Of a DNA stretch of 64,000 nt, positions 2,183 to 11,522 are shown piece by piece (the first letter of the stretch is position 1; each line of letters begins with the position of its first letter). The DNA is from Sinohyriopsis cumingii. Its lineage: Eukaryota; Mollusca; Bivalvia; Unionida; Unionidae. Below the pieces are notes generated by a model, which worked only from the letters and a program-made list of their open reading frames with translations, was not told the DNA's origin and searched no databases. The stretch lies in NCBI GenBank assembly GCA_028554795.2, contig CM068831.1:33921144-33985143 (forward strand), written 5' to 3'. The translations under genes and the position numbers were made by a program.

Positions 2183-2606
2183 TTAAAACCCGGTTGATTG
2201 ACTTGTGGAAACAAATTCGGAATTAACAGGGGATGAGTTAATTTGACGGATGCATTCGTCGAATTCTACGGAACTTAAGGTTATGGGATTGATATATTCA
2301 TCGAATTCTACAGAACATGAGTGAACTGGATTCAGGTACCCATCAAGAGCATCATCACGTTTGACGTTGTCGAGCTTCATTGGATGCTCTATTTCATTTT
2401 TTGCAGGAACTACGTTTTGCCGAAACAGCAATGCATCGCTGCATTGTACAAACTCCAGTTCGATAGCAGTACTGAATTCACCTCTTTCGCTGCTTACAAC
2501 TGTCAAGTACCCTCCAAGCAAAATTTCTTCCTGCTTGATTTCCTCTTCATCATCTTTATTACACTCCTTACACGTATCAATATTTGACATTTTGTCCACA
2601 CGTAAG
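2183..2606 (-). CDS. Gene A exon 6: cytoplasmic tail with Tyr-x-Asn-Pro repeats
   Basis: The acceptor is ATATTTTTTAG; one base completes the Arg codon of the previous exon, then 140 codons run to TAA. The start of the tail is acidic and lysine-rich (about residues 5-27), with a CKEC pair. The last third repeats a unit of about 15-17 residues containing [11 protein letters not shown] and [11 protein letters not shown], preceded by GYLNPV. Two tyrosines sit in Tyr-x-Asn-Pro, the general shape of Grb2-type SH2 docking sites once phosphorylated; one further site reads GGYLTVV. In paralogue B the degenerate third repeat has Tyr where A has Cys. Signalling function is an inference from motif shape only. 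Confidence 0.82.
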
Positions 2607-8600: not shown

Positions 8601-11522
8601 TGTCCTCATAAATTATGAATGAAAGTGTGATTGGTTCCCCAAGTCGTGCCACAAATACGTGACCTGCAAATCAAAATTAATGAAACAGAGGCATGAAATT
8701 TGTATAAAAACTAAAGTACAAATAACATGATATAGCGTGGATTATGTGTATGATGATGAATATATATTAAATATATTTTAAATTAAAAATACATACAATC
8801 TAGATAAAATTAAATGTTGAGTTTCTGGGTAGTTGCCGTCACGTGTGCCTGATACGTTAACATGCTGACCAACCGGAGTTATTTATAATCAATTACTATA
8901 CACTAGAACCCAATAGACGAAGTATTCGACGTAATACATGCATATTATCTCTTATTTGTCCTTTATTTCGTGATTCGATCATGTAGCTCTGTTTGAGTTC
9001 ATTACTTTTATAGAACATATTCATTCTTTTATCAGCAACTAAGATTATTTATTCTGTCTTTGTGAAAAAGTAATTTTGAGACACACACACACACACACAC
9101 ACACACACACACATATATATATATATATATATATATATATATATATATATATATATATATATATATATTATACACACACACACACACATATATATATATA
9201 TATATATATATATATATATATATATATATATATATATATATATATATATATATATATATATATATATATATATATATATATATATATATATAGTAGCAAA
9301 TCAGTATCTAGCTAGCATGAACGTTTTGGATTCTTAGTGAGTCTTTTTCAACGGCAAAAATAAAACACAGACAAGACAAACAAATAAAACAGAACAACGT
9401 TTATTTTGTGCGGGCATTTACATGGCCATTTCTAGAGGAATTCAACCTTTTAACTGTATTGTGTTTCAACTAGTTTATTTCAGCTTGTTGCTCATACTGG
9501 AAATATTTGTATTGACCTAGAAATTGATGAGCCATACCGACAGCTGCATATTTAGAAAATTATTTAAAAGAAAATGTGTCGGTTCCTTACTGGAAGCTTA
9601 CTGGACACGCCGCCTTAGACTTTTGAACCCATGAGGTTTCATCCAAAAGAACTAGAAAGGGACAATCATAAACAAATAAAATTATCTTTAGCAGCCGGCA
9701 CATTTTCTTTTAAATAATTCCTATGACTACTATACTAATGAAATATCCGGATATCATTTGCACTTACGTAAAATAACAGATGTCGTTAGGGCTCATCAGT
9801 TTACAGGTTATTAAGTAGTCGAAAGCGCTCAGGCTACATAGATTTTAGTTTCTCACTGTTCATTGTCAGTTTATTGCATTTATCTTAATCAATCCCCTAC
9901 ACACGTGATCCCTTGCTGGATCCAGTGCACTTGAAAGGATTGCTATTCGCCATATATAAAAGAAGATTGCTAGCCACTTAAATACACGTATCTATGCTTA
10001 TGTATGTATGTCTTCTATAGATAGATATACATATACTCTCCATTTGATATGACACGAAGGTAATATGAATACTTACGAGCGACAAGAACACTTGTATACC
10101 CATTCACATTGGAATTTTCCTTTACTGTATAATTTCCACTGTCATTAAACATGACATTTAGTAGCAGAAAACTGAAATGACCATTGCTATTTACGACGCT
10201 CTCAATTCGACCTGTATAATTACTGTTGATAGATATGTTCCCTTTTTGGCCCTTCACTGGCATGTAGAGTACCACATTAGTGAAATGTTGATTACTAGTG
10301 TAACCAGAGAAGTTGATTTCCAAAAGTGTTTTTCCATCCGTTTTAGATATATCAATATAAACAGTAGCATTTTTTCCATGGACAATTGTCGTCGGATTCA
10401 AATCTGCAAGGATGAACGATGGATCGTGTTAGACATACATGAAACGTGATATTTATATTAAGCTTATAAATGTTAAGTAACATAGTCTTCAAGAAAAGCA
10501 GGTTCGATATGCACAGATTCTTACCTTCGAGCATGGGGTCCCGAGTGGCCGAGTGGTTTTAAGCGCTCTCCGTTACGGATCACTGCCATCTCACCTCTGT
10601 CAGCGCCGGATCGAGTCTCGCATTTGGAAAATGAGGGTATGTGAGAAAGCTTGTCAGTAGGTTCTCGAGGGTCGATGGTTTTTTCCGTGGTTTTCTCCGG
10701 TTCTTCCTCCACCATTAATACTGGCCGCCATGTATAGCATATCGTGTGCTTAGAAAGGGCGTTAAAACCTACAACAACAACAACAACAACAACAACATTC
10801 GAACATTATTTGTACATATATGCATACATACATACATATTATCAATTTGCTTTGAAAAGGGAGTTCTTTCTTTATGTACGATTGTGTAGGAACGATGAAG
10901 TCTGGAGACAAATTTAGTTTCAACGTGAATGCATGCATTGGTTTTTTTTTTGGTCAGAATTATCTGGGATATTTCATTCATTGAATTTATCATGTCAGTT
11001 TTGGGCATATGGTTACTTGACGGTCCGCCAGAGAGATAAATATAGCGGGGTTACATAGGTTTCTGAGAAAGAAAAATGTCAATGTTTAAATGAATTGTGC
11101 TTGTGATAATGCATCAGTCTACATTTTGAACGTTTGCGTTAGCATGTATTCCCAATCAAAGCAATATTAAAATAGGCTTTTAATTTTGCATGAGTATTTA
11201 TCTGACCATATCCATGAGGATATTTGGGAGTACATTCTATCATTGCTAGTTTACAATAGGTAAAGTCAATGAGCAAGGTTTGTATAAATAACCATAACAT
11301 ATTTGAATTAATAAAATGATGCTTGTCTCAATTATTATTTATTTTATGCTTAAATATTTCGATGAACAATGCTAGTTACTTCTTGCTCTAAAAATACTGA
11401 AAATGTATAAATTTTTCATTAAACACTCGAATCTGCTACCACATCTATCATTTTAACTCACCTTTAGCGTGATCTTTTCCACAGAAAATGAGGCAAAGCG
11501 ATAACATGGTCACAACATCCAT
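2183..11522 (-). CDS. Ig-superfamily transmembrane receptor, gene A (six exons, complete model)
   Basis: The coding exons are 11522-11462, 10403-10077, 8663-8349, 6231-6184, 3223-3139 and 2606-2183. All junctions have AG/GT and compatible phases (1, 1, 1, 1, 2), giving 1,260 nt and 419 residues. The order is signal peptide, Ig1, Ig2, short stalk, one transmembrane helix and a tail of about 140 residues. Symmetric phase-1 exons are typical of Ig and stalk modules. The product should be a type I plasma-membrane receptor or adhesion protein; ligand and pathway are unknown. The ectodomain is rich in N-glycosylation sequons. A poly(A) signal AATAAA lies at 2037-2032, about 146 nt after the stop. 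Introns hold a MITE, a SINE, microsatellites and a LINE. Exons 2, 3, 5 and 6 are strongly supported; the stalk exon and exon 1 rest on splice logic and, for the stalk, conservation in paralogue B. Confidence 0.78.
2677..2739. repeat. (AT)n microsatellite
   Basis: About 60 bp of AT dinucleotides in the gene A intron next to the tail exon; its partner in B is near 20,990-21,086. Confidence 0.95.
3139..3223 (-). CDS. Gene A exon 5: transmembrane helix
   Basis: This 85-nt exon enters in phase 1 and leaves in phase 2, between acceptor AAATTTCAG and donor GTAGGT. It encodes [20 protein letters not shown] then LRHKYRIR: a helix of about 22 residues with a Gly-x-Gly-Gly element, followed by a basic stop-transfer cluster on the cytoplasmic side. 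The B copy (21585-21501) has the same length and splice sites. Confidence 0.85.
3795..3838. repeat. (CA)n microsatellite
   Basis: CA dinucleotide run in copy A; its partner in B is 22,174-22,230. Confidence 0.95.
4122..4150. repeat. Target-site duplication of the LINE, left copy
   Basis: The repeat starts gcaaatcgtt and ends acatacaaca; its right partner is 4913-4941. B carries one copy at about 22,507. Confidence 0.75.
4151..4912 (-). mobile_element. 5'-truncated L2/CR1-like LINE
   Basis: The minus strand encodes the C-terminal part of ORF2 (for example [15 protein letters not shown] at about 4,830-4,780 and [20 protein letters not shown] near 4,440), and ends at the GCGCTATAC-type 3' terminus followed by an (ATT)n tail at 4187-4151. 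Imperfect 29-bp direct repeats, 4122-4150 and 4913-4941, flank it and match the single uninterrupted site in duplicate B. It is in an intron of gene A. Confidence 0.85.
6184..6231 (-). CDS. Gene A exon 4: short stalk exon
   Basis: This 48-nt phase 1-1 exon has a good pyrimidine-rich acceptor (TTTTATTGTACAG) and a weaker GTACAG donor. It encodes about 16 residues, [15 protein letters not shown], with a sequon and a Pro/Ser-rich stretch suited to a juxtamembrane stalk. The homologous position in B (24366-24322) also has a phase 1-1 frame with a stronger donor (GTATGT), which supports the call. It could be alternatively spliced, because skipping it leaves the frame intact. Confidence 0.5.
6271..6759. 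repeat. Tandem duplication of about 244 bp carrying (GA)/(GACA) tracts
   Basis: Two units, 6271-6514 and 6515-6759, share their start (ttcaacaagattgtatttct) and each contain a long purine-rich simple repeat. They lie immediately upstream of the gene A stalk exon, and the end of each unit resembles the stalk acceptor (TACAGATAGCTGCC). The simple repeat explains the Arg/Glu-rich and Ser/Leu-rich spurious frames here. Confidence 0.8.
7051..7612. mobile_element. MITE, pogo/Tc1-mariner type
   Basis: Inverted termini CAGTAATACCTCG and CGAGGTATTACTG bound 562 bp with no coding capacity. TA precedes the left end, and TA lies two bases past the right end, consistent with a TA target site. It is in an intron of gene A. 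Confidence 0.7.
8349..8663 (-). CDS. Gene A exon 3: Ig-like domain 2
   Basis: This 315-nt phase 1-1 exon has acceptor TTTGCAG and donor G|GTATTT. The strand-F-like segment reads KGSYFAW, so the usual Cys position is Trp, and the strand-B segment ITLSFII also lacks Cys. Two other cysteines (in NDSCTY and IHNCML) are about 18 residues apart and are both kept in the homologous exon of locus C, so they probably form a non-canonical disulfide. Two sequons (NST, NDS) are present. The exon aligns over its full length with 56802-57116. Confidence 0.8.
9081..9292. repeat. Long compound (CA)n(TA)n microsatellite
   Basis: About 210 bp alternating CA and TA blocks in the intron between Ig2 and Ig1 of gene A. 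The strongest simple repeat in the window. Confidence 0.95.
10077..10403 (-). CDS. Gene A exon 2: Ig-like domain 1 (cysteine-free)
   Basis: This 327-nt phase 1-1 exon has acceptor CCTTGCAG and donor GTAAGT. It encodes about 109 residues of an Ig V/I-type fold; the clearest mark is DSGNYTV, the strand-F motif that normally reads Asp-x-Gly-x-Tyr-x-Cys. Here the Cys position is Val, and no cysteine occurs anywhere in the exon, so the canonical disulfide is absent. Five N-glycosylation sequons (Asn-Ala-Thr, Asn-Phe-Ser, Asn-Ile-Ser and two Asn-Tyr-Thr) suggest a heavily glycosylated extracellular domain. No homologous exon was recognised for paralogues B or C. Confidence 0.75.
10535..10797 (+). 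mobile_element. tRNA-derived SINE with (ACA)n tail
   Basis: The head resembles a tRNA with A box GTGGCCGAGTGG and B box GGATCGAGTCTC. A conserved body follows (tactggccgccatgtata), then an (ACA)n tail. Short imperfect flanking repeats ttcga(g/a)cat at 10526-10534 and 10798-10806 look like a target-site duplication. Same family as 34820-35046. Located in the first intron of gene A. Confidence 0.8.
11462..11522 (-). CDS. Gene A exon 1: signal peptide
   Basis: The exon reads [20 protein letters not shown] plus one base, then a GTGAGT donor. A hydrophobic core (residues 5-14) follows a short acidic start, as in a short secretory signal. The ATG has a purine at -3 and G at +4. The single leftover G joins the next exon to make Asp in frame. 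A CCAAT-like box lies roughly 80 bp upstream (around 11,598-11,608). Confidence 0.65.

Follow-up and report, generated by a model that had tools for sequence, protein, structure and literature searches.

Can a receptor of the immunoglobulin (Ig) type be read from a genome when its domains lie far from the known profiles, and which of its exons can then be relied upon? The question is raised by a locus of the bivalve Sinohyriopsis cumingii (Mollusca; Unionida; Unionidae). It lies in a stretch of 64,000 nucleotides, hereafter the window (assembly GCA_028554795.2, contig CM068831.1, positions 33,921,144 to 33,985,143 of the forward strand; all positions below are counted from its first letter). 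The initial annotation of the window had joined six exons at 2183-11522 into an Ig-type single-pass receptor of 419 residues and had placed it in a local family of three loci, which it left unnamed. The present analysis puts the probability at roughly 0.6 that this locus, here called gene A, is a genuine gene, or was one until very recently, and encodes a type I Ig receptor with a single pass through the membrane and SH2-binding tyrosines in its tail.

Gene A is found on the minus strand, where five exons of 61, 327, 315, 85 and 424 nt form, once joined, an open frame of 403 residues that ends in its only stop (Table 1). All four introns are of the GT-AG type, the splice phases run 1, 1, 1 and 2, and both Ig-like exons are symmetrical. 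In the encoded protein, a signal-like peptide is followed by two Ig-like domains, a transmembrane helix and a tail of 141 residues. The signal-like N-terminus is clear, with a hydrophobic core of 2.76, and in-frame stops are present upstream of the start codon. The donor of the first exon (AAG/GTGAGT) has the top donor score among the eight phase-1 first-exon candidates listed for 10404-16000, a score that it shares with a shorter start inside the same exon. The signal-like peptide, the two Ig-like exons, the transmembrane helix, the tail, the phases and the open frame of the original description all stand, while its sixth exon and its length of 419 residues are unsupported.

Table 1. Coordinates in the window of gene A, of the disputed exon and of the partial copies
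Feature	Position	Strand	Remarks
Exon 1	11462..11522	-	Start codon and signal-like peptide (20 residues), ending in phase 1
Exon 2	10077..10403	-	Ig-like domain 1, V-like, without cysteines; phase 1-1
Exon 3	8349..8663	-	Ig-like domain 2, assigned by pattern; contains two non-canonical cysteines; phase 1-1
Presumed stalk exon, 48 nt (16 residues)	6184..6231	-	Unsupported
Exon 4	3139..3223	-	Transmembrane helix; phase 1 to 2; splice sites retained in partial copy B
Exon 5	2183..2606	-	Cytoplasmic tail with YLTV, YLNP and YINP, then stop
Candidate polyadenylation signal AATAAA	2032..2037	-	About 150 nt past the stop of gene A
Partial copy B	18806..23225	-	Matches window 1-1551, 2051-4152 and 4913-5624
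Partial copy C, first piece	56315..57225	-	Matches 7865-8770; exon of Ig-like domain 2 with one in-frame TAG
Partial copy C, second piece	59458..59750	-	Matches 8760-8864 and 8929-9161

The exon that was left out was presumed to encode a stalk. The addition of 6231-6184 to the five-exon model reproduces the 419-residue frame exactly, and this segment is almost certainly the one that had been meant. With a fair acceptor and a GT donor, it preserves phase 1-1 and brings in an N-L-T sequon, so that the longer protein would gain a glycosylated stalk, perhaps as an alternative splice form. Against this, the segment ranked only third of the seven above-threshold phase-1 candidates in its own 5.1-kb intron, and when 22 further blocks of 5.1 kb were taken from the window, 21 held a candidate exon of equal or better score. 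The sixth exon is, therefore, unsupported. As the stretch around it has no counterpart in either of the two partial copies of the gene, B and C, conservation is of no help in judging it. A real six-exon form is accordingly considered quite improbable, and, on the candidates compared, a gene of five exons appears most likely.

Whether the five-exon frame itself is more than chance was approached with an exon-chaining script whose sole goal was the longest coding sequence obtainable from no more than five exons. Unprompted, the script chose exons 2, 3 and 5 at boundaries identical to those of the model, and departed from it in the first exon and in a longer transmembrane exon. Its differing first exon sits in a repeat at 10536-10790, which recurs at 34821-35048. 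This repeat begins like a tRNA, ends in (AAC)n and is 76 % identical to the second copy; it lies within intron 1 of gene A and, judged by eye, resembles a short interspersed nuclear element.

After long microsatellites had been removed, 500 first-order Markov shuffles were made; their best chains reached 723 nt in the median and 1158 nt at most, short of the 1212 nt of the gene A model in every case. A point against the gene is that, when 20 further, overlapping blocks of equal size from the window were chained, 7 gave at least 1212 nt, and length alone is, therefore, no proof of a host gene. The longest rival chain (block 54001, minus strand) spans the reverse transcriptase open reading frame (ORF) of a long interspersed nuclear element (LINE), and the other long-chain blocks are presumed to be mostly transposon frames too. 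The order of the parts, in which a signal-like peptide, Ig-like exons, a transmembrane helix and a tail stand in the correct sequence, is a better argument for a gene than the length. That chance ORFs were merely joined by hand is a view that the long chains elsewhere would favour, but with none of the shuffles attaining 1212 nt and the anatomy in its proper order, it is held to be highly improbable.

The evidence for Ig domains differs between the two exons. When exon 2 alone was compared with solved structures, a weak match to the polymeric Ig receptor (pIgR; PDB 7ysg and others) was obtained, with E=0.003 over 46 residues, which is its best sequence match. The match spans under half of the exon, and the Ig domains of pIgR retain their disulfide, unlike those of gene A. 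The list of matches down to E 10 has 31 rows, of which 26 bear the names of Ig-type proteins. Only seven rows, all of pIgR, fall below E 0.09; the further Ig-type matches, including CEACAMs, shark NAR, nectin-3, FGFR2, titin, MOG and others, all have E of at least 0.09. An E/F-strand signature ending in D-x-G-x-Y is also present in exon 2, and exon 3 has a version of it with H in place of D. The search pattern was composed with exons 2 and 3 in view, and its scan returned six ORFs of the window, namely these two exons and four others. Eight of the nine N-glycosylation sequons of the protein are in the ectodomain and one is in the tail.

Several results weigh against an Ig ectodomain. Five of the 31 structure rows of exon 2 are non-Ig by name, and with the whole protein as the query only pIgR rows were returned, at E 2.1 and above. 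The Pfam Ig matches of exon 2 all fall short of the curated cut-off (V-set, 15.7 bits where 26 are required; ig, 15.7 where 21.8 are required; I-set, 13.4 where 23.7 are required), and the best Pfam row of this exon is TcA_RBD, likewise far short (E=0.0037; 18.1 bits, cut-off 32). The sole Pfam row of exon 3 is SH3_5 (E=0.0067; 16.9 bits against 22), and no Ig match was found for this exon in Pfam or in solved structures. Single-sequence structure models were poor, with predicted local distance difference test (pLDDT) values of 46.9 and 37.2, and a fold comparison of the better model gave no significant matches and is uninformative either way.

The canonical B-F disulfide cysteines, which are usual though not universal, are present in neither domain, with strand positions judged by eye. 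Exon 2 contains no cysteine, and Cys 178 and Cys 194 of exon 3, both retained in copy C, are located outside the B and F strand positions. CD2/SLAM-type receptors likewise have a two-domain ectodomain with a first V-like domain devoid of the usual disulfide, along with a tyrosine-based tail; in gene A the second domain too is without the usual cysteines. Domain 1 is a weak match to V-type Ig domains. Domain 2 may share the Ig fold, as suggested by the E/F pattern common with exon 2, the phase 1-1 exon and the low-confidence, all-beta model of seven strands (the one of pLDDT 46.9). The Ig-type single-pass receptor originally described is supported, not proved: it keeps a weak pIgR match for exon 2, a clear transmembrane helix and a signal-like N-terminus, and lacks Pfam Ig matches above the cut-off and any Ig match for exon 3.

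Residues 238-256 form one clear transmembrane helix, with a mean hydropathy of 2.74 over 19 residues. Beyond it, besides a juxtamembrane tyrosine, the tail has three others, in YLTV (296), YLNP (353) and YINP (367). The last two motifs each open one of two adjacent 14-residue units that are identical at 9 of 14 residues; with every period from 8 to 24 allowed, such an agreement arose in 1 of 1000 shuffles. A third unit resembles the second at 4 of 14 residues and starts with Cys in gene A and with Tyr in copy B.

The immunoreceptor tyrosine-based inhibitory motif (ITIM) has the consensus (I/V/L/S)xYxx(L/V/I), the corresponding activation motif (ITAM) consists of two YxxL/I elements spaced by 6-8 residues, and SH2 domains of the Grb2 type recognise phosphorylated YxN. 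The tail contains no ITIM, since GGYLTV, DGYLNP and DEYINP have G, D and D at position -2 and two of them end in P, and no ITAM. Grb2-type YxN is found as a sequence motif at 353 (YLN) and 367 (YIN). The Y-x-N-P motifs would, thus, fit candidate docking sites of Grb2-type SH2 domains and not ITIM or ITAM. A tail of repeated tyrosine motifs is unusual in what otherwise looks like an ordinary Ig-like receptor, of a kind that is very common in animals.

The neighbourhood of gene A includes two partial copies of it. Copy B differs from the gene A region by Kimura two-parameter (K2P) distances of 0.06-0.09. Its transmembrane exon (21585-21501) is open, and its tail (20920-20504) is broken by a gain of one base and a loss of eight bases relative to gene A. 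Copy C, at K2P 0.19-0.21, consists of two pieces with a LINE between them, at about 57226-59457. For exons 1 and 2, tblastn gave no convincing further match in the window (best other E 0.067 and 1.8). The blocks of B and C lie on one strand, in order and without overlap, and it is possible that they are one copy split by insertions. Two separate events are favoured, because the divergence differs between them. Three homologous blocks are indeed present, as the proposal of a local family had it, but just gene A is intact and the two others are partial, broken and unequally diverged; within the window the family is one gene and debris.

Intron 3 of gene A contains a LINE fragment (4150-4915). 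The corresponding site of copy B (around 22511-22540) is free of it, as would be expected of an insertion later than the duplication. Downstream of gene A, a stretch of about 500 bases (1552-2050) is likewise missing from copy B, whose blocks on either side nearly adjoin (20360, 20373). The LINE at 57226-59457 carries a reverse transcriptase ORF (57930-58784; RVT_1, E=1.8e-22), lies about 100 bases from the exon of Ig-like domain 2 in copy C and agrees with the 4150-4915 fragment at 87.5 % of 769 aligned columns.

The copies also allow selection to be considered. They give no clear indication of it in either direction, and the comparison of exons with flanks and the codon shuffles count against a functional gene. 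Between copy C and gene A, 57 of 315 exon sites differ (18.1 %) against 110 of 585 flank sites (18.8 %); for copy B, the values are 36 of 501 (7.2 %) and 125 of 1555 (8.0 %). Codon substitution shuffles against the copies do not reject neutrality. Insertions and deletions number 0 in exon 3 against 8 in the flanks for copy C, and 2 in the exons against 9 in the flanks for copy B. The Nei-Gojobori (NG86) dN/dS ratios of gene A against the copies are 0.53 and 0.63. Since the exons diverge from the copies as fast as the flanks do, constraint is not demonstrated. Such equality would fit copies that died early.

Two further accounts have to be weighed on this evidence. Gene A may itself be a decaying or unexpressed copy that is still open by chance, with the working gene elsewhere. 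The lack of clear constraint and the breakage of both sister fragments would be in keeping with it; nevertheless, 403 codons without a stop or frameshift, four GT-AG introns, a strong first donor, a polyadenylation signal and the dN/dS values just given speak for a gene, and this account is seen as rather unlikely. Alternatively, gene A could be a fast-evolving member of a larger, lineage-specific family of immune or recognition receptors, with the fragments as birth-and-death debris of a tandem array. Two partial copies of unequal age beside one intact gene, exons as divergent as their flanks and the Cys-to-Tyr difference in the third tail unit would all fit such a family. However, the window holds a lone intact member, and neutral decay of the copies accounts for the divergence equally well; the idea is, thus, possible but tentative, and stands well below the reading of gene A as a receptor gene in its own right.

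The rest of the window is animal-like, with a GC content of 32-42 %, microsatellites and retroelement ORFs. Between copies B and C, at 26000-41000, many degraded ORFs resemble, by eye, pieces of integrase, capsid-like proteins, reverse transcriptase or RNase H; the six of them that were scanned had no Pfam match at E 0.01. The ORF 43513-44001 matches the RNase H domain of reverse transcriptases (RT_RNaseH_2, E=1e-06, slightly under the cut-off).

If gene A is a receptor gene, its protein would be directed to the membrane by the signal peptide and displayed at the cell surface, where ligands carried by other cells or particles would presumably be bound by the V-like domain 1, and domain 2 would act as a spacer. 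The single helix would span the membrane, and the tail would bear three tyrosines in a Y-(L/I)-x-x setting. After phosphorylation, Grb2/Drk-type SH2 adaptors could bind to the two Y-(L/I)-N-P sites, and another SH2 protein to Y-L-T-V. A role in defence or in cell recognition, akin to the innate-immune or self-recognition role put forward in the initial annotation, may be envisaged for such a receptor.

In outline, gene A appears to resemble several invertebrate receptors, all compared here by their descriptions. CgIgIT2 of the oyster Crassostrea gigas is described with five Ig domains and an ITAM (PMC11999971). It is likewise an invertebrate Ig receptor with a transmembrane helix and a tyrosine-motif tail, whereas gene A has two Ig-like domains and no ITAM. 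The same source describes the Alr family of Hydractinia as Ig-type receptors (PMC11999971), and the fester co-receptors of Botryllus are described as having variable-type and C2-type Ig domains, along with ITIM, hemITAM or core Y-x-x-I/L/V motifs (PMC12065747). The likeness of Alr and fester to gene A would be in a V-like domain joined to other Ig domains and in local gene clusters; the fester co-receptors are, in addition, type I transmembrane proteins whose tails can carry the Y-x-x-I/L/V core motifs. Gene A differs from both in having neither ITIM nor ITAM and in being the one intact gene of its window. Allorecognition receptors such as Alr and fester are marked by a polymorphism that governs the acceptance of kin, and the window represents a single haplotype.

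It may even be suggested that gene A represents a lineage-specific, fast-turnover family in which both Ig-like domains lack the standard disulfide and the Y-x-N-P site has been multiplied as 14-residue repeats, so that recognition would proceed by Grb2-type and not ITIM or ITAM signalling; this suggestion is a speculative one and is regarded as doubtful. What the locus does indicate is that exon phase and anatomy allow an Ig-like receptor to be read from a genome even where its divergence puts it beyond curated profiles. Such divergent Ig-like genes may escape the annotation of invertebrates. If gene A is one of many, together they would be a candidate system of recognition that signals through a motif distinct from ITIM and ITAM.

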